Of a stretch of 64,000 bases of DNA, positions 4,554-63,801 are shown one piece after another (position 1 is the first letter of the stretch; each line of letters begins with the position of its first letter). The translations under genes and the position numbers were made by a program. The notes below the pieces were generated by a model, which was not told the origin of the DNA, made no database searches, and saw nothing but the letters and a program-made list of their open reading frames with translations. This DNA comes from Pseudomonadota bacterium. Lineage in GTDB: Bacteria; Pseudomonadota; Gammaproteobacteria; JAADHS01. The DNA lies in contig JAKACW010000001.1 in the NCBI GenBank assembly GCA_021821045.1, positions 1-64,000 on the forward strand. The letters are read 5' to 3'.

Positions 4554-6143
4554 TCAGCTCGGGATATACGGATCGAGTTCGCGACCGACGTCCGTGGCAA
4601 ACTTGGTAAGCAACTCGTCAGCCGATTCAACGTCGCCACCAGGAGGGATAACCGTCGTAAGCCGCACTAATGCGCCATCGGAACGATTCCGCGTCAGAGA
4701 ATCCCAGAACAAGTACCACTTCACCAGATATTCGTTGGTTACAACACGCCCTCGTTGCTGAAACCAGTAGTAGACGAGTTGTTTCTGCTCGCCCTTTTCA
4801 ATAAGCGCCCGATTAACTTGCAGGGGCGCGCCACCCGGACCGGCACCAGGAACCTCAATTTCGTTAAGATCGCTGATGCGCCAGCCGCCGCCGGGGATGC
4901 ATGAGCGCGGCGAGTGGACCGATTGACCTTTGCGCTGGGAGCCATAATAGGCGACGTATAAATTGACGGGCTGGGGCGACCCGCCGAGCCGATAATCGGC
5001 CAGCAGGTAGTCGTCGAATTTCAAAGCATCTACATAGATCTTTTCCAGCCGTCCGGCTTCACCGCGCCAAGACGCAAAGTTCCCTGGAAAACCAATGAAC
5101 TCGGCGCGCTGCGGCATCAGCTCCGTGCGTTCGGGCTTGACGACCATAAAGCCCGCGATAAGCGCCAACAACGCTATCCCTCCGACCAGGGGTGACTGAA
5201 TTGTGCGGGCCTGGACATTGGCGGCCGCTACCTTGGCTGCCGAGATCGGCGGCAAACCGAACACGCCGCGAAACGGCTTCCTCGTGCCCACGAACGTCAA
5301 CAACCACATCTCGAAAAACAATAGGGACGTGCACGCCATAAACACGACCCAGCCTTCGAAGTCGTGCAAGAAACCCTCGGCCATCTCGGGTCCCCACCTA
5401 TCCACGGTAACCCCGATAACACCGATACGAAAGCTGTTCATCAGCACCGTAATGGGAATGGTCGATAGAAACACGACCAAGCGCTTCCAGAACTCAACTC
5501 GGTATAGGTACGCGGCAATAAAGCCAAAGGTCATCAGCGGAAACAGATAGCGCAGCCCGCTGCAGGCCTCCACTACCTGGAGCTGGTAGGCTCCAAGGTC
5601 AATCACGTTTCCTTCCGCCGAGACGCTAATGCCCAAGAGGCGAATGACTGCAACGCCCAAGTCCGATGAAACCAGCTGCAGCTTAGCGGACAATCCCTGG
5701 TACAAAAAGTCCGGCAATGGAATCATGAACGCGAGAACGAGCAACGGCGCCCACAGCGAGCGGAACGCCCGCCAACCAAATGCGGCAAGAACAAGGCCAA
5801 CGACGACCACGAGGAACGCGTAATGAACAACAATATAGAGCGTGGCGAGTTCTCCCACTATGAGCAAAAACGCGCCCATTAGCACTATCGCAAAACCGTA
5901 CCACGTGCCCTTGAATTCAATGGTGCGCAAAAAAGGCCACTGCTGCCAGACAAAAAACAGGGAGACAAAGGGCACAAGGTAACCGTAGCTGTACTCCTCG
6001 GAGCTACCCCATTTAGTCAGCAGAAACCCCAGCCCGTCGGAGAACGTCACCCCGACCAAGGCGGCAGCAACGAGCAGCGCTGTCCACCACGGCCGCGTTT
6101 CTTTCCATATGGTCGAAGTGGACGAAAGCGCTAGGGTATTCAT
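4554..6143 (-). CDS. xrtD: Exosortase D (VPLPA-CTERM-specific) fused to EpsI domain
   Basis: A 529-residue protein. Residues 1-290 form a multi-span exosortase with the full catalytic set: Cys194 in EACSGLRYL, Arg239 in NSFRIG and His260 in FLHDFEGW. Residues about 315-529 are an EpsI-like domain with the signature HSPRSCIPGGGW (410-421). This exosortase-EpsI fusion is typical of XrtD, the transpeptidase-like enzyme that cuts C-terminal VPLPA tails. Two proteins with such tails are in this window (C-termini near 50278 and 53931), which supports the assignment. It heads the unit xrtD, phosphoglycosyltransferase, prsT. A PhoB-like promoter (6195-6228) lies about 50-85 bases upstream of the ATG at 6143. 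Confidence 0.92.
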   Translation of the reverse strand: MNTLALSSTSTIWKETRPWWTALLVAAALVGVTFSDGLGFLLTKWGSSEEYSYGYLVPFVSLFFVWQQWPFLRTIEFKGTWYGFAIVLMGAFLLIVGELATLYIVVHYAFLVVVVGLVLAAFGWRAFRSLWAPLLVLAFMIPLPDFLYQGLSAKLQLVSSDLGVAVIRLLGISVSAEGNVIDLGAYQLQVVEACSGLRYLFPLMTFGFIAAYLYRVEFWKRLVVFLSTIPITVLMNSFRIGVIGVTVDRWGPEMAEGFLHDFEGWVVFMACTSLLFFEMWLLTFVGTRKPFRGVFGLPPISAAKVAAANVQARTIQSPLVGGIALLALIAGFMVVKPERTELMPQRAEFIGFPGNFASWRGEAGRLEKIYVDALKFDDYLLADYRLGGSPQPVNLYVAYYGSQRKGQSVHSPRSCIPGGGWRISDLNEIEVPGAGPGGAPLQVNRALIEKGEQKQLVYYWFQQRGRVVTNEYLVKWYLFWDSLTRNRSDGALVRLTTVIPPGGDVESADELLTKFATDVGRELDPYIPS

Positions 6144-6194: not shown

Positions 6195-6228
6195 AGGCTA
6201 TCAGGCATACGTGACAAACGTATTACAC
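6195..6228 (-). promoter_or_regulatory. Putative PhoB-dependent promoter of xrtD
   Basis: Minus-strand GTGTAAT-ACGT-TTGTCAC (6228-6211) is an 11-base-phased direct repeat. Exactly ten bases later comes TAGCCT (6200-6195), a TANNNT -10 element. The same TAGCCT at the same spacing occurs at 20523-20556. It would give a leader of about 45 bases before the xrtD start. Confidence 0.55.
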
Positions 6229-49371: not shown

Positions 49372-49926
49372 TCACGGCACCACAACCACGTCGCCACTTC
49401 GCAGCACAATGTTTTGTTCCAGATTTCGCCCCTTTTCGACTTCGACATAATTAAACGGGATAGCTTGCTGTTTGCCGTCCGCGCGGCGTAACACAAACAC
49501 CTCTTCGAGCGCGGCGAAGCGCGACATGCCACCGGCGATACTGAGGGCCTGCATGACATCGACGAACCCGGTCAGGGCCACCTCCCCTGGACGGTTAACC
49601 TTGCCAATAACGTAGACTTTGTTGCCTTCCAACTTGGCCGCTGCTACGGTGACTACCGCGTCAGGCAGGTAGGTCGCAAGCCCTTTGGCGATTTCCGTTC
49701 GGACCTGCTCCACAGTTCGTCCCTGGGCATCGACTTCGCCGGCCAAAGGGAAGGAGAATCGACCGTCCGGGCGAATCAACACCGTTTGCTGCAGATCGGG
49801 CTCTTTCCACACGGACACGCTGAGTACATCGCCGGGTTGAAGAAAATATTCACGCGAATCGGCGATGCTGCCGGTCGCGAACAGGCTGGCAGCGCACCCC
49901 ACAATAAATACGACCATCGCTCGCAA
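49372..49926 (-). CDS. Polysaccharide export protein (Wza-type, Poly_export/SLBB)
   Basis: 184 residues. The start is uncertain: TTG at 49926 lies seven bases after GGAGGGAG and fits best; ATG at 49917 is too far from it, and GTG at 49953 lies before it. A signal peptide ends near ATGSIA. The Poly_export domain starts YFLQPGDVLSVSVWKEPDL; the SLBB domain has VYVIGKVNRPGEVAL and LSIAGGMSRFA. It forms the periplasmic/outer-membrane channel for the EPS with the Wzz-type protein two genes downstream. It heads the unit 49926 to 45434. Confidence 0.9.
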   Translation of the reverse strand: MRAMVVFIVGCAASLFATGSIADSREYFLQPGDVLSVSVWKEPDLQQTVLIRPDGRFSFPLAGEVDAQGRTVEQVRTEIAKGLATYLPDAVVTVAAAKLEGNKVYVIGKVNRPGEVALTGFVDVMQALSIAGGMSRFAALEEVFVLRRADGKQQAIPFNYVEVEKGRNLEQNIVLRSGDVVVVP

Positions 49927-50047
49927 AGTACTGCTCCCTCCAAATAAAATCACGCAATTGTAGCGTTAGTAGATTGCAAAGAAGTGAAAAGCCAGAATAT
50001 TTGCTCCAGCCTACAAACGTCCTACAAAGTCATTGCATGACGGACAT

Positions 50048-50081
50048 AAAGTACCGGGATATTGTTATATTTTTGTTACAG
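50048..50081 (-). promoter_or_regulatory. Putative PhoB-dependent promoter of the Wza-Wzz operon
   Basis: Minus-strand CTGTAAC-AAAA-ATATAAC (50081-50064), with a further weak unit upstream (CTGAACC, 50092-50086), then ten bases, then TACTTT (50053-50048). The leader to the 49926 start is about 115 bases. Confidence 0.52.
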
Positions 50082-50120
50082 AAGGGGTTCAGAGCGATCG
50101 CAGCACCCGGGTGGTGGCGT

Positions 50121-50159
50121 CAAAAAAGGCGCCAGTCGTCCCAAGCGGGACGACTGGCG
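50121..50159 (-). terminator. Strong rho-independent terminator after the VPLPA-tailed gene
   Basis: Thirteen perfect base pairs (arms 50130-50142 and 50147-50159) around a four-base loop. On the minus strand the stem is followed by CC and then six T (50127-50122). It lies about 120 bases beyond the stop at 50278 and separates the ribbon-helix-helix/VPLPA unit from the Wza operon promoter. Confidence 0.9.
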
Positions 50160-50277
50160 GAGGGGGATGGAGTCCATTCGATTTTCTTCTCACCCCGGAA
50201 GACTGCTTCGCTCGCCGACCCGCTGTGCCTCAGCGGCGCGCGGAAGAGTTCAGATCCTAACAGCGTGCCCCGTCCGG

Positions 50278-50847
50278 TTAGGCTGGCACGGGCCCCCGTG
50301 CTCCCAAGCCCAGGTTTAATGTGGGCAGGGTCCCGCCTTTTCCAGTTACTACAAGAACCACGAGGCCGGTAAATAACAGTAACAGTGCGGACGGCAGCGG
50401 CACGGCGGCAGGACCGAACGCCGTGACTTGCACACCGTAGAGGCCAAGCCCGAACGTCTCGCCCGCATCGCCCATAAGACTCGCGTAGTACGTACCGGGC
50501 GCCGCGGCCTCAAACTCAAAGCTGCCCGAGCCGAATACAGACCCTAGGCCAAGCTGGTCTTCGACAAAGGTCGAGATGCTCAGACCAATCGTGCGAAAAC
50601 TCTCAGGAAAGCCAAAGTCGGCGAGTTTGGCGGTATAGGTTCCCGCTTGTGCAATGGTGAAGGGAGTAACCTTGGTGAAACCGCCGGCAGTCGCTTCGAC
50701 TGAGAGCGGGGAAAGCCCCCCGGGACCGGCACCCAGGAAACCGACATCCTCATAGACGATGGTGGCCGCCGATGCGTTGGTGCTCATTACTCCGATTGCC
50801 GCTAGCGCAGCGAATCCCGCCGCTTTGAAAAATCCACACTTGCTCAT
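50278..50847 (-). CDS. Exported protein with VPLPA-type exosortase tail (atypical end)
   Basis: 189 residues from the ATG at 50847, six bases after AAGGAG. A signal peptide ends near NASA. The body is beta-rich (YTAKLADFGFPE, GTYYASLMGDAGE), similar to other short PEP/VPLPA proteins. Near the C-terminus is FGPAAVPLPSALLLLFTGL, the VPLPA recognition motif plus a hydrophobic segment. The usual Arg/Lys cluster right after it is missing; instead 22 mostly neutral residues follow (TGKGGTLPTLNLG and on). A likely substrate of XrtD. It lies 26 bases downstream of the ribbon-helix-helix gene. Confidence 0.75.
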   Translation of the reverse strand: MSKCGFFKAAGFAALAAIGVMSTNASAATIVYEDVGFLGAGPGGLSPLSVEATAGGFTKVTPFTIAQAGTYTAKLADFGFPESFRTIGLSISTFVEDQLGLGSVFGSGSFEFEAAAPGTYYASLMGDAGETFGLGLYGVQVTAFGPAAVPLPSALLLLFTGLVVLVVTGKGGTLPTLNLGLGARGPVPA

Positions 50848-50873
50848 CACTCGCTCCTTGTTCCAATTTAGTG

Positions 50874-51413
50874 TTAGTTGATTGAAGGTAGAAGGTCGCC
50901 CGGAATCAGGCTCGCCTCGTCTTTGTCCTTTGCCGCCGCGACGCTGCGAGCCTCGGCCCTGCGTTCGCCCGCCGACACGACGTACTTGTCATAGAGATAA
51001 CGGCGCAGCAATTGCGAGGGCGGTAAACCTTCACGGTTGTCCTCCACCAACTCCTTGAGCCGCATATAAAGGTAGTTATCCTGCAATCCCCACATCGCCA
51101 GAAGCTCGATGTCGTCTCGATCAACGCGCCGGTCATCACCGGTGACCGCGCCGTTGATGATGGCGTCGAGCCGATCCGTATCCAGTTCGAAGTAGGTCGT
51201 CAGCTCACTACCGAACTCCACAAATACCGGAACCAAGTCTGAACCGGTGGTATGCGAATCCTGCAACGGAGTGAGCTTCGTCAAGCTGCTGCGAACTGCG
51301 AAGCGGAATACATCAGACTCACGCACCTGCAAACGCGCCGCGATTTCCCTAATACGACGCAGATCAGATGCGCTCATTCGCACAGAGATGTTTTGCTTTC
51401 TCTGACTACTCAT
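50874..51413 (-). CDS. Ribbon-helix-helix domain protein, putative regulator
   Basis: 179 residues. The first 50 (QNISVRMSASDLRRIREIA, VRESDVFRFAVR) look like a ribbon-helix-helix DNA-binding domain. The remainder is acidic and helical (DRRVDRDDIELLAMWG, LRRYLYDKYVVSAGERR) with no recognised family. No partner toxin gene is adjacent. It is co-transcribed with the VPLPA-tailed gene downstream and has the phased-repeat operator at 51474-51518. It may regulate sorting substrates or the neighbouring lipid gene; the function is unproven. Confidence 0.65.
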   Translation of the reverse strand: MSSQRKQNISVRMSASDLRRIREIAARLQVRESDVFRFAVRSSLTKLTPLQDSHTTGSDLVPVFVEFGSELTTYFELDTDRLDAIINGAVTGDDRRVDRDDIELLAMWGLQDNYLYMRLKELVEDNREGLPPSQLLRRYLYDKYVVSAGERRAEARSVAAAKDKDEASLIPGDLLPSIN

Positions 51414-51473
51414 AGCCTAGTGTTCCTTCCCTTAGTGGCACGCGGTCGTCGTTCTGCCCGCGTTCGAGATGCA

Positions 51474-51518
51474 AAGTTACTCGTATATTGTGACGAAGCA
51501 GTGACATTTTTGTTGCAG
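51474..51518 (-). promoter_or_regulatory. Putative three-unit PhoB box and promoter of the RHH-VPLPA operon
   Basis: Three heptamers in strict 11-base phase on the minus strand: CTGCAAC (51518-51512), ATGTCAC (51507-51501) and TCGTCAC (51496-51490). After ten bases comes TAACTT (51479-51474). The leader to the ATG at 51413 is about 55 bases. Confidence 0.6.
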
Positions 51519-51552
51519 AATGACCGGGTTACGTGATCTCTTAACGGTCCGG

Positions 51553-51570
51553 ATGTCATGCGTTTATCAC
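51553..51570 (+). promoter_or_regulatory. Additional PhoB-like box in the divergent region
   Basis: Plus-strand ATGTCAT-GCGT-TTATCAC in 11-base phase. No -10 element follows at the usual distance, so it could be an upstream auxiliary site for the promoter at 51593-51626. Confidence 0.4.
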
Positions 51571-51592
51571 GCACAATGCACACGGCGTCGAT

Positions 51593-51626
51593 CTGTAACA
51601 TTTCAGTCACGCAGCCGCCCTATTTC
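51593..51626 (+). promoter_or_regulatory. Putative PhoB-dependent promoter of the OlsF-like gene
   Basis: Plus-strand CTGTAAC-ATTT-CAGTCAC (51593-51610), ten bases, then TATTTC (51621-51626). The leader to the GTG at 51683 is about 50 bases. Phosphate control of ornithine lipid synthesis is well established in other bacteria, which fits. Confidence 0.58.
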
Positions 51627-51682
51627 CGTAACAGTGACCTGTCATTCTTTTGCGCGACAACATCACGGCATGCAGGTAAAAC

Positions 51683-53518
51683 GTGAACGAGCGCAACGAA
51701 CGAAACCCCTTCAGGATCAACGGACAGCCAAACTTCGCGGGCGATCCGGCGTGGCGCCAGTGGGTGGAAGTGACGGTCGAAAAGATCTTTTCTTTGGATC
51801 GACTTAACACGATTTACGGCAGGTTCCCCACCGGACTGACGGTGGATCAGTTCCTGGATCAAGTCATTCGCGAACTGCGGCTGAACTATCGCGTCGCCCT
51901 GGGCGAACCGTCGAACATTCCGGCGCAAGGGCGTTTGATCATTGTCGCGAACCATCCCTTCGGGGCTTTGGAAGGAATCGTCCTCGGACATTTGATCCGG
52001 AAAATTCGCCCGGATGTTCGCTTCGTCGCCAACTATTTACTGAATCGCGTACCGGAGCTGTCTGAACTTTTTTTCCAAGTAGATCCGTTCGGCGGAATGG
52101 GTGCCCACAGTCGAAGCTTTGCCGGTATTCGACAAGCCCGCGAATGGCTGGAAAAAGAGGGCTGCCTGGTTCTTTTTCCCGCGGGAGAAGTGTCCCATCT
52201 GAATTTGCGCGATGGCCTGGTCTCCGATCCGCCGTGGAACTTGGGCGCCGCGCGGCTGGCGAGGGCGTCACTCGCGCCGGTCCTACCCATCTATTTTCAC
52301 GGCACTAACAGCGCCATGTTCCATCTCGCCGGCCTGATCGAACCGCGCCTTCGCACCGCGCTGCTGCCACGGGAGTTAATCAAGAAAGCAGACCGAACGA
52401 TTTCCCTTGCGGTGGGTGACTGCGTCGGCGGAAAGAAAATCGAACAGATCGCCGACGATGGGGCACTGACGGATTTTCTGCGCGCTCAGACCTATTTCCT
52501 GGGTCGCCGTTTGGCCGCGGGCAAGCAGACAAAAATGGCCAAACCGCGCTTGCTTTCTCCCCGTGCGGCGGCGCCCATCCCGCCGCCCCGTGATAAAACG
52601 CAAGTTGCCGCCGAAGTTGCCGGACTGAGCACTCAACACCTCATGCTGCAAGACGGAGCCTTCGACGTGTATGTGGCACAGGCGGGGGCCATTCCAGTGG
52701 TGATGCAGGAGCTTGGGCGGCTGCGCGAAGTGACGTTCCGCGCCGCCGGCGAAGGAACCTTGCGCGAGCGGGACATCGATCTGTTCGATGCGTACTACGA
52801 TCACATCTTCATTTGGGACAGAAAGCAGCAGGAACTGGTCGGCGCCTATCGTGTGGCCCGAACGGATGACGTAGTGCGGCGCTACAAGATACGGGGATTG
52901 TATACCCAGACCTTATTCCACTATGGCGAGCCATTTCTGGAGCAATTGGGGCCAGCGATCGAACTGGGGAGGTCGTTTGTGCGCAGTGAGTATCAGAAGA
53001 GCTATGCGCCGTTGCTGTTACTATGGAAAGGTATTGGACGATATTTGTGCGTTCACAATCACTACAAGACACTGTTCGGGCCGGTCAGCATCAGTCAGTC
53101 TTATGCTCCCCTGTCTCAAGCCCTCATGGTGGAGTTTCTTAATAATCATCACCCGTACCCCGTCGCCCCGAACGCGGTAAAAGGGCGCAGACCGTATCGC
53201 GCGGCGACCCACCCACGCGCACAGATCGAGCCGCGCATCGCCCGCTATCTCGACAGCGACGAGCTTGGCGCCATGGTCTCCTCGATTGAGCCAGACGGCA
53301 AGGGCGTGCCAGTACTCTTGCGCCATTACTTGAATCTCGGCGGAGAGATCGCGGCGTTCAACGTCGACAAGCGCTTCAACAACTGCCTCGATGCACTGCT
53401 GATCGTCGACGTGACAAAAGCGCCCTTAAATGCCCTGCGCCGCTATATGGGCAAAGACGCGGCCGACCTGTTCCTGGCGGGTCACCGGGAGGACGCCGGG
53501 ATCACCCTTGCGTCTTAG
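51683..53518 (+). CDS. olsF: Bifunctional ornithine-lipid synthase-like acyltransferase (OlsF-type fusion)
   Basis: 611 residues from the GTG at 51683, preceded by AGG. Residues 75-280 are a PlsC-type O-acyltransferase: NHPFGALEG (His91) and FPAGEVS (165-171). Residues about 315-590 are an OlsB-type GNAT N-acyltransferase: LVGAYRVARTDDVVRRY and AIELGRSFVRSEYQKSYAP. In OlsF enzymes the C-terminal half N-acylates ornithine from acyl-ACP and the N-terminal half adds the second acyl chain, giving a phosphorus-free membrane lipid. That activity is inferred from domain order; the amino acid could differ. Upstream lie two plus-strand PhoB-like boxes. The gene converges with a small gene, overlapping by four bases. 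Confidence 0.8.
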   Translation: MNERNERNPFRINGQPNFAGDPAWRQWVEVTVEKIFSLDRLNTIYGRFPTGLTVDQFLDQVIRELRLNYRVALGEPSNIPAQGRLIIVANHPFGALEGIVLGHLIRKIRPDVRFVANYLLNRVPELSELFFQVDPFGGMGAHSRSFAGIRQAREWLEKEGCLVLFPAGEVSHLNLRDGLVSDPPWNLGAARLARASLAPVLPIYFHGTNSAMFHLAGLIEPRLRTALLPRELIKKADRTISLAVGDCVGGKKIEQIADDGALTDFLRAQTYFLGRRLAAGKQTKMAKPRLLSPRAAAPIPPPRDKTQVAAEVAGLSTQHLMLQDGAFDVYVAQAGAIPVVMQELGRLREVTFRAAGEGTLRERDIDLFDAYYDHIFIWDRKQQELVGAYRVARTDDVVRRYKIRGLYTQTLFHYGEPFLEQLGPAIELGRSFVRSEYQKSYAPLLLLWKGIGRYLCVHNHYKTLFGPVSISQSYAPLSQALMVEFLNNHHPYPVAPNAVKGRRPYRAATHPRAQIEPRIARYLDSDELGAMVSSIEPDGKGVPVLLRHYLNLGGEIAAFNVDKRFNNCLDALLIVDVTKAPLNALRRYMGKDAADLFLAGHREDAGITLAS

Positions 53519-53930: not shown

Positions 53931-54638
53931 TTACGCTATCCGCAGGTTTCGCCGGCGGCCAGAAAGGCCCAAACCGACGAGGGCGGAGCCAAGCAGCCAC
54001 ACTGCTGCGGGAACCGGCACCGCAAACGAACCATCGGGACGCACGATAAAATCGGTGATGGTGAGAATATTGTTTGTCATGTAGTCGTTGAAATTCAGCG
54101 CGTTTGCGTAGGCAACGACGTCGTTGCCCGCCGTCTTGCCGTCTTTGGCATAAAACACACCCCATACCGGCGCGCGATCAGTCACCATGGTGTAATTGAC
54201 CTGACCGGCTGTGCTGCCGAAGTCGAATTTCACACCGTACATCGGATTGGGCAGCCCCGGGTTACCCATCGACGAATCCCACGTCTGCGGCCCTTCCGTC
54301 GGCGTGCTGGTTCCGCCGAGGATATTGAATTGCTCAGCGTCGTTGGTAACTTCCAAAATGAAGTGCGAGACGTCTTTGATTTGACTCGGGCTGTTGGTCA
54401 CGTCTACATCGTAGTTGTAGGTCCACGTCCCGTTGCCGTTGTTAACAATATTCCACGATATGGCAAACCCGCCGTTATCCCACTGCTCCGTTGCGTCGAC
54501 CCCTAAATTCAGCGGCGATGAACGTGACCCGGTAAGATATGCGCTCGCATCCGTTCCCCAAAGCGCGGCATGCACAGGTCCAGTCATTCCTATGGACGTC
54601 ACGCCGACCATCGCCACTATCAAGCTATGCTTATACAT
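53931..54638 (-). CDS. VPLPA-CTERM sorting-domain protein
   Basis: 235 residues from the ATG at 54638, preceded by AAGGGAG. A signal peptide ends near PVHA, then ALWGTDASAYLTG. The secreted part is beta-rich (NGTWTYNYDVDVTN, VSHFILEVTNDAEQF), like choice-of-anchor PEP-CTERM proteins. The tail is canonical: VPVPAAVWLLGSALVGLGL then GRRRN, the motif-hydrophobic-basic arrangement cut by XrtD. This is the clearest exosortase substrate in the window. Function at the surface is unknown. Confidence 0.88.
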   Translation of the reverse strand: MYKHSLIVAMVGVTSIGMTGPVHAALWGTDASAYLTGSRSSPLNLGVDATEQWDNGGFAISWNIVNNGNGTWTYNYDVDVTNSPSQIKDVSHFILEVTNDAEQFNILGGTSTPTEGPQTWDSSMGNPGLPNPMYGVKFDFGSTAGQVNYTMVTDRAPVWGVFYAKDGKTAGNDVVAYANALNFNDYMTNNILTITDFIVRPDGSFAVPVPAAVWLLGSALVGLGLSGRRRNLRIA

Positions 54639-54813
54639 GACCAATACCACTCCCTTAGACTCGCTGTTTAACACGTGCGACTCAGCCTGGACGCAGCCAG
54701 ACCCGCTCCTTTTCGTGCCGCAAGCTGGTATTCAGTCGGTTCCAAGTCGATACCGAAGGAAACTTGCCCGCAAACTGGTAATACTTCGCCTTTTAATGCC
54801 GTTTCGTGCTTGC

Positions 54814-54858
54814 ACAATAACGTGCGATTGTGACCGGATGATTAAGTTTTTGTGTCAG
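54814..54858 (-). promoter_or_regulatory. Putative PhoB-dependent promoter of the VPLPA-CTERM gene
   Basis: Three heptamers in 11-base phase on the minus strand: CTGACAC (54858-54852), a degenerate ACTTAAT (54847-54841) and CGGTCAC (54836-54830). After ten bases comes TATTGT (54819-54814). It lies in the 244-base gap 54639-54882; the leader would be about 170 bases. Confidence 0.5.
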
Positions 54859-56807: not shown

Positions 56808-56841
56808 CTGTAACAAAAACTACACATCTGCGCGCTACAGT
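56808..56841 (+). promoter_or_regulatory. Putative PhoB-dependent promoter of the OlsB-like gene
   Basis: Plus-strand CTGTAAC-AAAA-ACTACAC (56808-56825; second unit degenerate), ten bases, then TACAGT (56836-56841). The leader to the ATG at 56871 is about 23 bases and holds the GGAG ribosome site. Confidence 0.5.
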
Positions 56842-58091: not shown

Positions 58092-58113
58092 TCGCGGACA
58101 TGTCCGCTCCTAC
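58092..58113 (-). repeat. REP-type palindrome, copy 1
   Basis: Minus-strand GTAGGAGCGGACATGTCCGC followed by GA: a GTAG head and the perfect palindrome GCGGACATGTCCGC. This is the layout of RAYT-associated REP elements of Pseudomonas and relatives. It overlaps the stop codon of the coiled-coil gene. No RAYT transposase gene is present in the window. Confidence 0.7.
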
Positions 58114-58811
58114 TGGTCGTCTACTGCAGCGCTCATGTTGACTTCCACTTCACCCTTCATCTTGTATCGATACTCGGAAACCAGGTTCTCCATCTCCACC
58201 CTCTTGAGCTTGGTCATGGGCTCCTTCTGCATGAGAGAATCCCACACGCCTTTGTTCTCGTAAAGATCGAGCACTTCGGTGCCCATAGTGAACAACTGGT
58301 TGTTCTTTTCGGCGCAGCGGTCGTAATCCGCGGCCTTGGTTTTGAGCGCGCTGGTGAGCTTGCTTTTCTCGGCTTCCACGGTGCGCAAGTTCTGCACCAA
58401 TTCCTTGTATTTGTCGACGATCTGCTGAATTTTGTCGTTTTGTTTTTCAATGTACTCGCGCAGTTTGGCGTCCGTCTCTTGATACTTGGTCAAGCTCGTC
58501 TGCGTCGACTCTGTTTTGTTTTTCGCGGCTGCGATTTCCTTCTTCAACTTCTTCTCCTGCGCGACGGCGTCATCCAGTTTTTTCTGCAGTTCGTCGTTTT
58601 CCCGCTGCAGCCGGTCGCGCTCCGCAGTCAACTGCTGCATTGCGGCCTGCACTTGCGCCCCGACCCCGCCGCCCGCGTCACGGCGAGTCGTTTGGGCATT
58701 CACCGCCGTTGCCGCAAGCGCATTTAGGATCAGCAAGCCCAGGCAAATGTAAATAATTTTGGTGTATGTCCAAAATGGCTGAGTCTCAATTGGTGCGTCA
58801 CGCGTTGCCAT
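58110..58811 (-). CDS. Membrane-anchored coiled-coil protein, last gene of the TonB operon
   Basis: 233 residues. An N-terminal membrane helix (IIYICLGLLILNALAATAV near 14-32) is followed by a long coiled coil, about 55-170 (LTAERDRLQRENDELQKKL, KLREYIEKQNDKIQQIVDK). The C-terminal 50 residues are less charged. I do not recognise a named family. It follows the porin gene by nine bases and shares the operon with ExbB, ExbD and TonB, so it may help the TonB complex or porin reach across the periplasm; that is inference. Confidence 0.8.
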   Translation of the reverse strand: MATRDAPIETQPFWTYTKIIYICLGLLILNALAATAVNAQTTRRDAGGGVGAQVQAAMQQLTAERDRLQRENDELQKKLDDAVAQEKKLKKEIAAAKNKTESTQTSLTKYQETDAKLREYIEKQNDKIQQIVDKYKELVQNLRTVEAEKSKLTSALKTKAADYDRCAEKNNQLFTMGTEVLDLYENKGVWDSLMQKEPMTKLKRVEMENLVSEYRYKMKGEVEVNMSAAVDDQ

Positions 58812-58820
58812 CGTGTCCTC

Positions 58821-60611
58821 CTAGAACTTAGTTGAAATGTCCAACTGCACAGTGTCCACGCCAAACGGCGCGTAATCGATAGCATCCGCGGTTAGGTAAC
58901 GCAACGTCACCCAAGTATTGTCCGCGATGCCATACTCACCCTTCAGGGTGTAACCCTTGGCGTCGGTTCCGCCGAGATGGAAGTCGGAATCGGTAAAAGC
59001 GTCAACCACCGCGTCTCGCTCCAACCGTTTATAAGTGAACTGAACACGCCAGCGCCGTGGATACGTCACTTGCGGCCAGCCCACAGTGATGCCCACTTGG
59101 TATCCGCTTGTCCGTTCTTCCACCTCCTGGCCAACCCGCGAGGCCACCTCCGCAGCATCAAAGGCCACATTTTCCAGATAGTCGAGACTGAGGATGACAT
59201 GGTGCGGGGCAAAGTTGGAGAAATCCGCCGCGAATGTAATCGCGGCCACGGCGTAGTCCGACGCTAGTGCCGCACGGTAGGCGGTTGCCGTAGCCGAGTT
59301 GGCGATATTGAAGACAGTGTTACCCTTTTGGAAGAACTGCGGCGACGTATAGTTCAGATCCGTGTTGCCGACGGTCGTGTTGCGGCGGCCGACGATGTTC
59401 TCATAGTCGAAATAGGACATGGCGACCGTGTAGGTAGATTGGTTATTGGCGATGAACTCGAACCCGACCTGCGCGCCGTAAAGCCACTTGTCATCCTCAG
59501 ACAACTCCACTTCCTGTAGAGGAAACGCCCCCGCGGTTACAAACATGACACGGTCGTGCTCGGTCAAGTCCATCAGATCGTCACTGCTGCGGAGGTTGAA
59601 GCGATAGGTTCCGGCCAGACCGTCGAAATTCAAGTCGTCGTCGAACAGAAGGTCCGTCGTGAAAAACGGATTAGGCATGCGCCCTCCGCTAAGCGTCATA
59701 AAAGTGAACCCGTTCAGATCGAAGTCGTCGTAGCGCAAATAGGCTTGGTCCCAGGCGACGGTGAACCCATTGAAGCTGTTACCCAAGGTTTGATTGGTCG
59801 AAACGGGATCACTCGTTCCGCCAGTGGCTAAGCGAAAGGCCGTCTTTAGCTTCGGCGTAATCGCGGCCTCGACGCCCACGCGGGCGCGAATGCGCAGGCG
59901 CTCGCGATCCTCGGTGGTATTCAGGTAAGCGTCATTCCCGGCCGCCGCGATGTCGCCTGTCTCATTAATCTTGTTGTAGTTGAAATAGGAAAAGGCCTGG
60001 TTCCCAGTGGCGAAGTCGTCCATTTGTGCCCGCAAACGAAAATCGCCCTTCACCTTAATGCGATCCACCCACTCCGGCGTGACGCCGGGCATTCCCCAGC
60101 GTTCCTGCTTGGCCTGGGACAACACACCGTCAATGGTGTCCTCTCGCAACCCGGCACGAACTTCATCACGAATTTGATTCTTGACGTTTTCCGGGACGTA
60201 TGGCACGCGAATGATCTTCTCGCCGGGCTTGGGCCCGGCCTCCTCGACCACCTGGGGCTGTTGCGCTTCTTGTTCCGCGCTATCGACGATGGTCTGCACT
60301 TGTTCAGGCGTGAGCGTGCCCTGCTCGATCAAAGTATTCAGCACGGCGCGCAGCGTCGCGTCCAGTTCACGCACATTGCGCTGTTTTGGCGTTACCGGGG
60401 GCGGGCTGGACGGCGCTGAGGCTTCAACCGCTACGCTTTGTCGTTCCTGTGGCGCCGGATCGCCAGGTGGCGTCGCTTCGCTTGGCTGGGCGGAGGCGGC
60501 CTCTGTCGGCTGCGCCGGTACCGATTCCTCTTGAGCCCAGGCTAACCATGGAGTTGTGAAGAATTGAATGCATCCCAGCGTCGCAATCGTAAGAATCTTT
60601 TTCTGCGTCAT
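58821..60611 (-). CDS. Putative porin with N-terminal coiled-coil/linker
   Basis: 596 residues from the ATG at 60611. A signal peptide ends near WLAWA. Residues 30-190 are a Pro/Ala/Glu-rich linker and helical segment (ATLRAVLNTLIEQGTLTPEQV). The remainder is a 14-18-stranded barrel of the putative-porin type: VKGDFRLRAQMDDF, RLRIRARVGVEA, FMTLSGGRMPNPFF, and a final VQLDISTKF with C-terminal Phe. It is encoded downstream of tonB. The substrate is unknown; phosphate or oligosaccharide are possibilities only. Confidence 0.83.
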   Translation of the reverse strand: MTQKKILTIATLGCIQFFTTPWLAWAQEESVPAQPTEAASAQPSEATPPGDPAPQERQSVAVEASAPSSPPPVTPKQRNVRELDATLRAVLNTLIEQGTLTPEQVQTIVDSAEQEAQQPQVVEEAGPKPGEKIIRVPYVPENVKNQIRDEVRAGLREDTIDGVLSQAKQERWGMPGVTPEWVDRIKVKGDFRLRAQMDDFATGNQAFSYFNYNKINETGDIAAAGNDAYLNTTEDRERLRIRARVGVEAAITPKLKTAFRLATGGTSDPVSTNQTLGNSFNGFTVAWDQAYLRYDDFDLNGFTFMTLSGGRMPNPFFTTDLLFDDDLNFDGLAGTYRFNLRSSDDLMDLTEHDRVMFVTAGAFPLQEVELSEDDKWLYGAQVGFEFIANNQSTYTVAMSYFDYENIVGRRNTTVGNTDLNYTSPQFFQKGNTVFNIANSATATAYRAALASDYAVAAITFAADFSNFAPHHVILSLDYLENVAFDAAEVASRVGQEVEERTSGYQVGITVGWPQVTYPRRWRVQFTYKRLERDAVVDAFTDSDFHLGGTDAKGYTLKGEYGIADNTWVTLRYLTADAIDYAPFGVDTVQLDISTKF

Positions 60612-60652
60612 TATCCTTAGCCTTACCAGATCGATGTTCTTCTCGGTCAAAT

Positions 60653-60674
60653 TCGCGGACATGTCCGCTCCAAC
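60653..60674 (-). repeat. REP-type palindrome, copy 2
   Basis: The same palindrome GCGGACATGTCCGC with the TCGC / GCTCC flanks as copy 1, but GTAG is changed to GTTG. It lies between the tonB and porin genes, where it could form an mRNA hairpin that sets their relative expression. Confidence 0.65.
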
Positions 60675-60682
60675 AACCTCTC

Positions 60683-61339
60683 CTACAACCGCGAGGTGAT
60701 CTTAAGCCGCACGGGCTGCGGCATGTCCTCCGGCGGCCGCTCTGCGACATGCCCCAACTCCATCAGCGCAACTTTTAGAGACTTATCCACTGACGTGTCG
60801 CCGGTGGAGTTCACAAGCTCTACCTTGTCGATAGCACCGTCCGGCGAGATCCAAACTTTCACTTTCACCGAGTATTTCTTGCTCCGAATGTCGCTGCGGT
60901 CATACAGGAAGTCCTGAATCATTTGGGTAACGACATTGCCGTAATAAGCAAAGCGGTCTCCGCCGCTGCCTACGAGTGAACGGCCGCCTTTGTTGCCGAG
61001 CAAGCCAAAAGCGTCTGCACCGCCGACACCGTCGGCATCCAGCCCCAGCAGGTCCCCCATCGGCGGTTCGTCGCTCGGCGCCTCAGGAACATCTTCAGGG
61101 ACGGGCTCTTCGATCTTGACCTCCTCGATCTCCGGTTCGGGCGGCTTTTCGATCTTCGGAGGCGGCGGGGGTGGCGGCGGCGGCGTAATAAGCGAAATCT
61201 GCTGCGCTACCTTCTTGTTCGATGGCTGGCTATCGAGGAAATTGGAAATGACGATAACCAAGCCAACACACACCACGCCGACGACGACAGCCGTGGCGAT
61301 CATGGGCAGGAATCGGATCCAGCGGCGTTTTTCTGTCAT
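60683..61339 (-). CDS. TonB-family energy transducer
   Basis: 218 residues. A single N-terminal helix (ATAVVVGVVCVGLVIVIS) is followed by a proline run of nine and a Pro/Glu-rich spacer (about 55-95), then a C-terminal TonB fold (KYSVKVKVWISPDGAIDKVEL, ending MPQPVRLKITSRL). It couples the proton motive force harvested by ExbB/ExbD to an outer-membrane partner. No TonB-dependent receptor is in the window, only the porin next to it. Confidence 0.88.
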   Translation of the reverse strand: MTEKRRWIRFLPMIATAVVVGVVCVGLVIVISNFLDSQPSNKKVAQQISLITPPPPPPPPPKIEKPPEPEIEEVKIEEPVPEDVPEAPSDEPPMGDLLGLDADGVGGADAFGLLGNKGGRSLVGSGGDRFAYYGNVVTQMIQDFLYDRSDIRSKKYSVKVKVWISPDGAIDKVELVNSTGDTSVDKSLKVALMELGHVAERPPEDMPQPVRLKITSRL

Positions 61340-61378
61340 GACATCCGAGCGCGACCTACGCCATCCACCAACGCACGT

Positions 61379-61783
61379 TTATTTAACAAGACGCTGCGTA
61401 ACCAGCCCCAATTGGGTGATCTCAAGCCGCCCCAACAAATCCAAAACATCCACAACGAGCTGATACTGAATCGAGGCATCGGCTTTCAGAACGACAGGCA
61501 GTTCCGGGTTGATCGACTTGTACTGGGCAAGTCGACTTTCCAGCTCCGACATGGTTACCGGATAGGTATCCAAAAAGATGGTGCCGTCCTGCGTGATAGT
61601 GACGGACTTGGTTTGAGGTTTGGCCAGACTGGGCGCGGCGCTGGCCTTGGGTAAATTCACCACGATGCCCTGCACTGTGGCGGTGGTCATAATGATAAAA
61701 ATCACCAACAATACGTACGCCAAGTCCAGCATTGGCGTTATGTTGATTTCATCGTAAAGCTTATCGTCACTCTGAACCTGCAT
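61379..61783 (-). CDS. Biopolymer transport protein ExbD/TolR family
   Basis: 134 residues from the ATG at 61783. The helix has NITPMLDLAYVLLVIFIIMT with the conserved Asp that carries protons. The periplasmic domain shows VVNLPKASAAP, VTITQDGTIFLD and VVLKADASIQYQLVVDVLD. It pairs with the ExbB-like protein 18 bases upstream. Confidence 0.93.
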   Translation of the reverse strand: MQVQSDDKLYDEINITPMLDLAYVLLVIFIIMTTATVQGIVVNLPKASAAPSLAKPQTKSVTITQDGTIFLDTYPVTMSELESRLAQYKSINPELPVVLKADASIQYQLVVDVLDLLGRLEITQLGLVTQRLVK

Positions 61784-61801
61784 TACATCCGCCCCCAACC
61801 C

Positions 61802-63607
61802 TTAACGTCCGTAGTGTTCCGCCAACCGGCTGATGAACTCATCGACAAACACGTGCATGTCGGCCACGATCTCCTTGATGCGCGATGCAAGGTAGTTGTA
61901 GCCGAACAGGGCCGGAATCGCTACGCCCAGCCCGGCGACTGTCGCCACCAGCGCGGCGGCAATCCCCGGCGCGATGGCGTTGACGTTGACATCGCCGCTG
62001 GCTGCAATGGCCGCGAAGGTAATCATTACGCCGACGACGGTGCCCAGCAGACCCAGGAAGGGACCGCCGCTGATGGCGATGGTTAGCAGCACCATTTGAC
62101 TGTTCAGTCGCTGCGTCTCGCGAACCAAGGTCGCGTCCAGTCCGGCACGAATGGTTTCGATCGCCTGGGGGGAAAGATTCGCCGCTTGCGCGCCTACCGT
62201 TGCGCCCACACGGCGTTGTAGGTCTTGTATGCCGGCATGGTAGATGCGGTAGATGCTCGAGCTTTGAAAGTGGTCGTGCTTGCCGAACAAGGCCTGCGCC
62301 AGGGGCGACGACGCTTCGAGTTGCTTCGCTTCTTCGTCCTCTTCCGCATCCAGCGCCGTCGGATCACCTTTGAGTTTGCTGAACTGAGTCAGAAACGACC
62401 GGTTGTCGCGACGAACTCGGTTGATGTAGACGCCCTTGCCAAACATGACCAACCAACTTATGACCGCCATGACAACCAAGATCGCGATTACGACCCAGCC
62501 GTCGATCGTGACGTTCTGAAGAATGACGCCGAAATAGGACGTACCGCCGGATTCACCTTGCTCGTCTTCGCCATAAGCAAGAAGTGGGCTGTCCGGGGTC
62601 TGCGCCATATAGGACGCCCGTATCCAGTTGGCATCCCGCGCCACATTGCTGACTTGGGCTTCGTCCAACTCGCCAACAAAACCAAGGGTGCCGTCCGTGG
62701 CTGCGCCGAATGACAGCGCTCCTCCAAACTCTTGCTCGAACTTGACCGCGATGCCGGCGGCTTCCGCCCCATTGACATAAAGCGCCAACTTGTCCGCGGT
62801 CAAGCTAACGACAACATGCTGCCAGGCGCCGTCCGGAATGACGGCAGGCGAGGTCTCGTAGCTCTTCGCGCCGGAGTAGCGGGCGCGCAGCTCGTTGCCT
62901 TTCATCTCCAAGACCAGTCCGTTGTTGCCGTCTTGCCATTGGGCCACGTAGGCGTTGCTCTGCGACTGCCCGGACTTCAACCACAGCGAGAGGGTCAAGC
63001 CGTTCTTCGGGTCTGCCCGAAGCGCGGGGCGGTTTTCAAGTTTAATGCTCGATGAGCCATTGAACTGCACGCCACCGCCGATGAACGAGGCGGACACCAG
63101 CGAGGCGGTGGTGCTGTCGGGATGGTTGGCGAATGAACTGCGGTCCTGCACTTGCGCGCCGTCAAAGTGGTAGACCAGCACCTGGCGCGGATCGAACGTG
63201 GCGGCAGCCTCTTGACCGTCCGCCGCGGCGGCGTTGCCATAGTACATCCAAATCGATTCGCCCATGCTGGCCCCGGCGACACTCGGCAGTTTGACCCAGA
63301 CGAATGCCAGGCCATTAACGGGATCGATACGTTCGATGTGGTGCTTGAGGGGCGTCTTGTCGTCGCCCGCGACGAAACGCAAATCGGCGCCGGCCGCGTT
63401 CATGTCCTGGAAAAACGGAAAATTCCCCGCATGCAAACGCACCAGCACGGGAAAGTCAGTGAGCGTTGCGGGTAGATTGGCGCCCTGTGCCGTGGTGTTC
63501 AGGCTGATCTGCTTGCGAAACGACCACTCGTCCTGCCACCACGCCTGCGCCAGCATCGGCAGACTCATCAAAACGAAAAAGAACAACGCAATCCGTTGTC
63601 GCGGCAT
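61802..63607 (-). CDS. DUF2341-LamG-ExbB fusion (MotA/TolQ/ExbB proton channel)
   Basis: 601 residues from the ATG at 63607, which has GGAG nine bases upstream; ATG at 63622 lacks a site. A signal peptide ends near LAQA, then a DUF2341 domain (WSFRKQISLNTTAQG to about 130) and a LamG/concanavalin domain (about 150-330; LTLSLWLKSGQ, LALYVNGAEAAG). After a linker and a membrane helix near 375 comes the ExbB/TolQ channel (FLGLLGTVVGVMITFAAIA and PGIAAALVATVAGLGVAIPA). The channel is thus joined to a periplasmic sugar-binding-like module. First gene of the operon down to 58110. Confidence 0.85.
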   Translation of the reverse strand: MPRQRIALFFFVLMSLPMLAQAWWQDEWSFRKQISLNTTAQGANLPATLTDFPVLVRLHAGNFPFFQDMNAAGADLRFVAGDDKTPLKHHIERIDPVNGLAFVWVKLPSVAGASMGESIWMYYGNAAAADGQEAAATFDPRQVLVYHFDGAQVQDRSSFANHPDSTTASLVSASFIGGGVQFNGSSSIKLENRPALRADPKNGLTLSLWLKSGQSQSNAYVAQWQDGNNGLVLEMKGNELRARYSGAKSYETSPAVIPDGAWQHVVVSLTADKLALYVNGAEAAGIAVKFEQEFGGALSFGAATDGTLGFVGELDEAQVSNVARDANWIRASYMAQTPDSPLLAYGEDEQGESGGTSYFGVILQNVTIDGWVVIAILVVMAVISWLVMFGKGVYINRVRRDNRSFLTQFSKLKGDPTALDAEEDEEAKQLEASSPLAQALFGKHDHFQSSSIYRIYHAGIQDLQRRVGATVGAQAANLSPQAIETIRAGLDATLVRETQRLNSQMVLLTIAISGGPFLGLLGTVVGVMITFAAIAASGDVNVNAIAPGIAAALVATVAGLGVAIPALFGYNYLASRIKEIVADMHVFVDEFISRLAEHYGR

Positions 63608-63677
63608 TAGTAGTTTCTCCATTGACGGCACGCGAATCAGGGGATTCGAAAGACCCGTTGCATGTTCTCTGGAAATT

Positions 63678-63695
63678 GTTGCAGGAACATTACAA
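63678..63695 (-). promoter_or_regulatory. Possible PhoB-like box upstream of the ExbB operon
   Basis: Minus-strand TTGTAAT-GTTC-CTGCAAC in 11-base phase, about 70 bases before the start at 63607. The -10 position reads GAACAT, a poor match, so this site is less certain than most. Confidence 0.38.
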
Positions 63696-63760
63696 AAGCC
63701 TTGATAGCAGGCTGTTGTTTCGAACAGGAGAATCTGAAACGTCAAAGAAATCCGACACGG

Positions 63761-63801
63761 GAGTGAGCATGGTCGCGCAACAATCGCGATTATGCTCACT
63801 C
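63761..63801 (-). terminator. Long hairpin directly after the right-edge gene
   Basis: Ten perfect base pairs (63761-63770 with 63792-63801) extend inwards by seven more (two of them G-U) to a seven-base loop. It starts at the base after the TAA of the minus-strand gene at the right edge. On the minus strand a T-rich stretch follows only after about eight bases, so termination is likely but not textbook. Confidence 0.55.

Follow-up and report, generated by a model that had tools for sequence, protein, structure and literature searches.

We identify, in a 269-bp gap between two divergently transcribed genes of a gammaproteobacterium, two back-to-back candidate promoters of the type activated by PhoB, one facing an operon headed by a gene for a ribbon-helix-helix (RHH) protein and the other a gene for an OlsF-like aminolipid synthase. 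While a PhoB-controlled olsF is ordinary, a probable phosphate switch over a cluster of the exosortase XrtD and its VPLPA-type substrates, with a conserved Pho-boxed RHH gene, is new. Many environmental bacteria possess exosortase systems, yet little is known of when and why they are used; to our knowledge, the control that has been described for them is by PrsK/PrsR with RpoN. In the literature that we searched, in which subscription journals are poorly covered, we found no report of PhoB control of exosortase or PEP-CTERM genes; VPLPA-CTERM was named in a single paper, and ribbon-helix-helix proteins and exosortases came up together only in a review of an archaeal model.

The window, by which we mean the whole stretch of DNA analyzed, covers the opening 64 kb of C120, a contig of 116 kb that makes up 2.6% of the 4.5-Mb genome; genes and their starts were called with a simple custom caller based on codon usage. 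The gap is bounded by divergent gene starts at 51413 (minus strand, ATG) and 51683 (plus strand, GTG). The features in and beside it are:

51414 to 51682, no strand: divergent intergenic region of 269 bp with two PhoB-type candidate promoters
51490 to 51518, minus strand: triple Pho box of the RHH operon, CTGCAAC-aaaa-ATGTCAC-tgct-TCGTCAC
51474 to 51479, minus strand: -10-like hexamer TAACTT, 10 nt past the last unit of the triple box, with a predicted start near 51467
51593 to 51610, plus strand: double Pho box of the olsF-like gene, CTGTAAC-attt-CAGTCAC, 72 nt from the start codon
51621 to 51626, plus strand: -10-like hexamer TATTTC, 10 nt past the double box, with a predicted start near 51633
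51553 to 51570, plus strand: weak third box, ATGTCAT-gcgt-TTATCAC
50874 to 51413, minus strand: RHH protein of an XrtD-associated family, with a tentative RHH-like fold match at its N-terminus
50278 to 50850, minus strand: divergent candidate for a VPLPA-CTERM-type exosortase substrate, next in the RHH operon
49372 to 49953, minus strand: exopolysaccharide export protein, downstream in the operon, with its own boxes at 50064 and 49973 (both minus)
51683 to 53518, plus strand: OlsF-like bifunctional aminolipid synthase, with an acyltransferase (PF19576) and a GNAT domain (PF13444) in one protein

To score the boxes we used a matrix built from Pho-box units of E. coli, which serves as a yardstick rather than a curated model, and we set the scores against 35.5 kb of intergenic DNA from elsewhere in the genome (background sample of 286 kb). 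The double box at 51593 (plus) scores 16.4 and has no equal in this background, while the triple box scores 11.9 and would turn up 0.008 times in 269 bp of such DNA, as against 0.02 times for the pair at 51501 (minus). When the gap is shuffled by a Markov model, two matches this good are seen in 0.03% of cases, and among all places of the window on both strands 51593 (plus) ranks fourth and 51501 (minus) eleventh. The box at 51553 (plus) scores 6.1, is expected 0.24 times by chance, and is without a -10-like hexamer at +10. Given these background expectations (no equals, 0.008 and 0.24), two of the boxes stand whereas the middle one does not by itself, and it is probably nonfunctional alone. 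The initial annotation had described three phased boxes forming the densest cluster in the window. Its three-unit box on the minus strand is borne out in coordinates, 11-bp period and rarity, and the two plus-strand boxes are also right in coordinates and period, but only that at 51593 lies beyond chance. The phasing holds inside each box but not between the plus-strand boxes, whose starts are 40 bp apart and thus no multiple of 11. Nor is the gap the densest cluster: with two matches scoring at least 8 it comes third, behind 49954-50277 (four) and 1-483 (three). Otherwise, a search of the gap for inverted and direct repeats recovered short two-copy matches only.

No sigma-70 pair of -35 and -10 elements was found in the gap. 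PhoB-activated promoters of E. coli, such as that of phoA, carry their -10 element at the spacing from the box seen here. The E. coli Pho regulon promoters (phoA, pstS) share with the gap units of 7 bases, a period of 11 bp, the absence of a -35 element, and a -10 element 10 nt past an 18-bp box; unlike them, the gap has two such promoters back to back, one for an exosortase-substrate operon and one for an aminolipid enzyme. The hexamer on the plus side, TATTTC, is a weak one. When boxes outside genes on two contigs (C120 and the first 40 kb of C133) are pooled, TAnnnT stands at offset 10 after 11 of 47, with a mean of 0.85 per offset; the 47 are not all independent, as some are overlapping registers of one triple box. 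In other genomes the same hexamer follows at offset 10 after 7 of 27 boxes.

The two promoters are part of a wider concentration of boxes, to which the initial annotation did not reach. Twenty of the 55 near-consensus boxes of the genome fall on C120, where 1.4 are expected, and a box in the sense orientation is present at 21 of the 50 promoter regions of this contig (42%) as against 3 of 166 elsewhere (2%). Column-permuted matrices hardly ever attain the box density of C120. The middle box at chance level and the commonness of single 7-base units could be read as a sign that A+T-rich intergenic DNA has produced the repeats by chance. We consider this very improbable: intergenic G+C is 54% on the contig and 55% elsewhere, yet the density of matches is about 28 times higher (3.1 versus 0.11 per kb); the -10 spacing stands out without recourse to the box matrix; and boxes recur upstream of RHH orthologues. 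The pattern is that of a 116-kb stretch of envelope genes which appears to be phosphate-controlled, with the gap as one corner of it.

The genome encodes a PhoB that scores above the curated cut-off. In its DNA-binding domain this protein differs very little from E. coli PhoB, to whose solved structures it can be aligned almost residue for residue; the recognition-helix region reads ERTVDVHIRRLRKAL here and DRTVDVHIRRLRKAL in E. coli PhoB. The same type of box is found upstream of pstS (TTGTCACagaaCTGTCAC) and pstC (TTGTAACaaaaCTGTCAT, with TATCCT at +10), and phoB itself is preceded by a weaker box. The proposal that the boxes act as PhoB switches on both genes beside the gap is well supported by these pst and phoB boxes, the -10 spacing, the orientation of the boxes and the box at RHH orthologues, and we regard such control as highly probable. 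Since the genome encodes about 15 near-full-length relatives of PhoB, a sister regulator is conceivable: another response regulator of the OmpR/PhoB family with the same repeat preference could bind the boxes and answer to a different signal, for example envelope stress, a reading with which the crowding of boxes on one contig, rather than their spread as in the classical Pho regulon, would agree. At pstS and pstC, however, the boxes are identical in type and the -10 spacing is the same, and the recognition helix is conserved; this makes the alternative unlikely and favors PhoB.

The RHH protein does not match any Pfam family. Its structural model is of good confidence (mean pLDDT 85.5). Over 38-45 columns, the ~44 N-terminal residues can be superposed on CdbA, CopG, Arc and AmrZ, with TM-scores by target length of 0.62-0.70 and rmsd of 1.9-3.9, but with E-values above 1, poor figures that reflect the shortness of the domain and its modelling as a monomer, with the strand unassigned. 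An RHH-like fold may be shared with these four proteins, unlike which the present one continues for a further ~130 residues of no known family. We recovered the family in 11 of 368 other genomes of the class; XrtD is present in 40 of the 368, and 10 of the 11 belong to these 40 (P about 8e-10, with kinship between genomes ignored); in a phylum-wide draw of 398 genomes only the copy of the source genome was found. Judged by these sequence searches, the gene belongs to a hitherto undescribed family that is nearly confined to genomes with XrtD. In three of the genomes (G317, G309 and G012) an orthologue of the VPLPA-type substrate candidate comes next after the RHH gene, with 'VYEDVGF' in G317 and G309 and a more divergent sequence in G012; in the former two a polysaccharide export gene follows, in the same order as in the source genome. 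Far relatives of the RHH protein are present in genus g275 of family f91 (G377-G384; L155-L161), several with a long N-terminal extension and two (L159 and L160) with an in-frame TGA within the matched stretch; no Pho box was found at these far relatives, which were left out of the orthologue counts.

Two genomes of the same family as the source gave no match to either the olsF-like or the RHH protein, so that the gap is not comparable between close relatives, and no relatives of the olsF-like gene were found in the contigs of the genome itself. The RHH promoter can be followed further afield. Upstream of the RHH orthologues a sense Pho box with a Markov P of at most 0.003 is present in G012, G239, G102 and G120 and in G092, G213, G375 and G395, the last four of which are one family; weaker boxes are seen in G371, G157 and G313, and none was found in G317, G309 and G249. 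The conservation in relatives that had been called for as a check is therefore seen at most RHH orthologues and in at least five other families, but not in the last three genomes. Several of these boxes are followed at +10 by TAGNNT (TAGCAT, TAGCCT, TAGCGT, TAGTAT and TAGGAT). Two wider propositions were rejected: 1) conserved Pho control of XrtD itself, as a significant box was found in about 3 of 30 genomes (the present one, G309 and perhaps G247); 2) Pho control of olsF-like genes as a general feature, as their boxes are weak or absent in most of the other genomes of the class that have such genes (best in G046, 10.5). Given that the RHH gene is boxed in most orthologues and XrtD only rarely, these comparisons suggest that the RHH gene may be the conserved entry point of phosphate into the XrtD system, whereas the spread of direct boxes across the whole cluster may be a feature of this lineage.

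The same comparisons bear on whether only the olsF-like gene is under PhoB, with the minus-strand triple box incidental and the RHH operon controlled otherwise. The plus-strand box is the stronger of the two, and PhoB-dependent olsF is already known from Vibrio cholerae (PMC12186959). The rarity of the triple box in background intergenic DNA, the TAACTT at +10 and the retention of a box by RHH orthologues of several families nevertheless leave this reading with little probability, and we favor control of both genes.

Whether the RHH protein is itself a second regulator of this region or of the XrtD system, as had been suggested, is more evenly poised; we regard it as plausible. It has an RHH-like N-terminus in the model, co-occurs strongly with XrtD and is encoded beside VPLPA-type genes in the three genomes named above. 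The alternative that it is merely co-transcribed, and acts elsewhere or has another role, is a serious one, though we lean slightly away from it. In its favor, a simple k-mer comparison, less thorough than a full motif search, recovered no operator shared by the upstream regions of RHH genes, and the long C-terminal part belongs to no known family.

The products of the two transcription units were also expected to be an exosortase substrate and an ornithine-lipid enzyme, switched on together. The pairing is reasonable; the identities are less exact. The candidate substrate matches TIGR03370 with 12.3 bits, below the cut-off of 25.35 (its orthologue in G309 reaches 20.9 bits), and its sorting signal is divergent, with a C-terminal VPLPS motif and a hydrophobic stretch. 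The olsF-like protein matches NF052615 with 431 bits (E 5.5e-129), short of the equivalog cut-off of 620, and so it is OlsF-like only and its exact lipid product uncertain. The closest described counterpart is olsF of Vibrio cholerae (VC0489; PMC12186959), likewise an aminolipid synthase of the OlsF type whose production in low phosphate is controlled by PhoBR; unlike the present gene, it has no exosortase system reported next to it, and the protein encoded here falls below the OlsF cut-off.

Elsewhere in the window lie the following genes of the sorting system:

4554 to 6143, minus strand: VPLPA-specific exosortase XrtD (TIGR04152, 573 bits, above the cut-off of 400)
6211 to 6228, minus strand: Pho box of XrtD, with TAGCCT 10 nt downstream
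53931 to 54674, minus strand: second VPLPA-CTERM protein, above the TIGR03370 cut-off, with a box at 54841 (minus)

C120 holds both VPLPA proteins of the genome that exceed the cut-off, together with two weak candidates (50278-50850 and 100850-101707), and all four have a box upstream of the gene or its operon. The contig also encodes PrsT-type, tyrosine-kinase, chain-length and export proteins. Two of its proteins have a sulfotransferase domain (L027:16818-17600 and L028:1325-2128), and it is a thought that a sulfated surface polymer might be produced in phosphate famine. Three TPR proteins carry a glycosyltransferase family 41 (O-GlcNAc-transferase-like) domain (L027:13180-15480, L027:17702-20000 and L028:12512-14317), and a triple Pho box (81680/81691) marks the start of the one that begins at C120:81702. 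An operon at 58110-63799 codes for a DUF2341/laminin-G/TolQ-like fusion, a TolR/ExbD-like protein and a putative porin; its Pho box at 63678 (minus) lies inside the called start, so the true start is probably further in, and the operon is also boxed in G317 and G092 (L088:5169-7403; L102:14089-16415). A second GNAT protein with PF13444 (56871-57677), with a Pho-box-like repeat at 56808 (plus), resembles those N-acyl amino acid synthases for which a link to exosortase systems has been described.

From these features we infer the following course of PhoB binding, activation and transcription start. On phosphate depletion, phosphorylated PhoB would occupy the triple box at 51490-51518 and the double box at 51593-51610, where it would substitute for the absent -35 elements and bring RNA polymerase to the -10 hexamers that lie 10 nt beyond. 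Transcription of the minus strand would supply the RHH protein, the VPLPA-type substrate and perhaps the polysaccharide export protein, and that of the plus strand the OlsF-like enzyme for a phosphorus-free aminolipid. The gap would be one node of the 116-kb cluster of XrtD, substrates, polysaccharide genes and sulfotransferases, largely under the same control, so that membrane and surface would be rebuilt together in phosphate famine. The RHH protein, turned on by PhoB, would most plausibly serve this surface system as a regulator of the second tier.

Two known systems offer partial parallels. The PEP-CTERM/exosortase system controlled by PrsK/PrsR and RpoN (PMC1569441, PMC9850573) likewise groups the exosortase with polysaccharide genes and with the surface proteins that are sorted; here, by contrast, the exosortase is XrtD, the substrates are of the VPLPA type and the promoters are Pho-boxed. 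The link between phosphate, Pho boxes and exopolysaccharide production is one that the present cluster has in common with rhizobia. As far as we know, descriptions of the rhizobial PhoB-exopolysaccharide connection include no exosortase or sorted substrates. In rhizobia it is PhoB that controls the exopolysaccharide (PMC3131613, PMC3233446).

More tentatively, and with real doubt, the system might be a conserved relay of two steps in which PhoB switches on the XrtD-associated RHH regulator and this in turn controls the exosortase and its VPLPA substrates, such that phosphate famine would govern a dedicated programme of protein sorting and surface polymers, with direct boxes additionally spread over the 116-kb cluster in this lineage. 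The predicted Pho switch at the XrtD-associated RHH gene, kept across families, provides a concrete and testable signal for the VPLPA/XrtD branch of exosortase systems, and it would tie the exchange of phospholipid for phosphorus-free lipid to the rebuilding of the surface coat.
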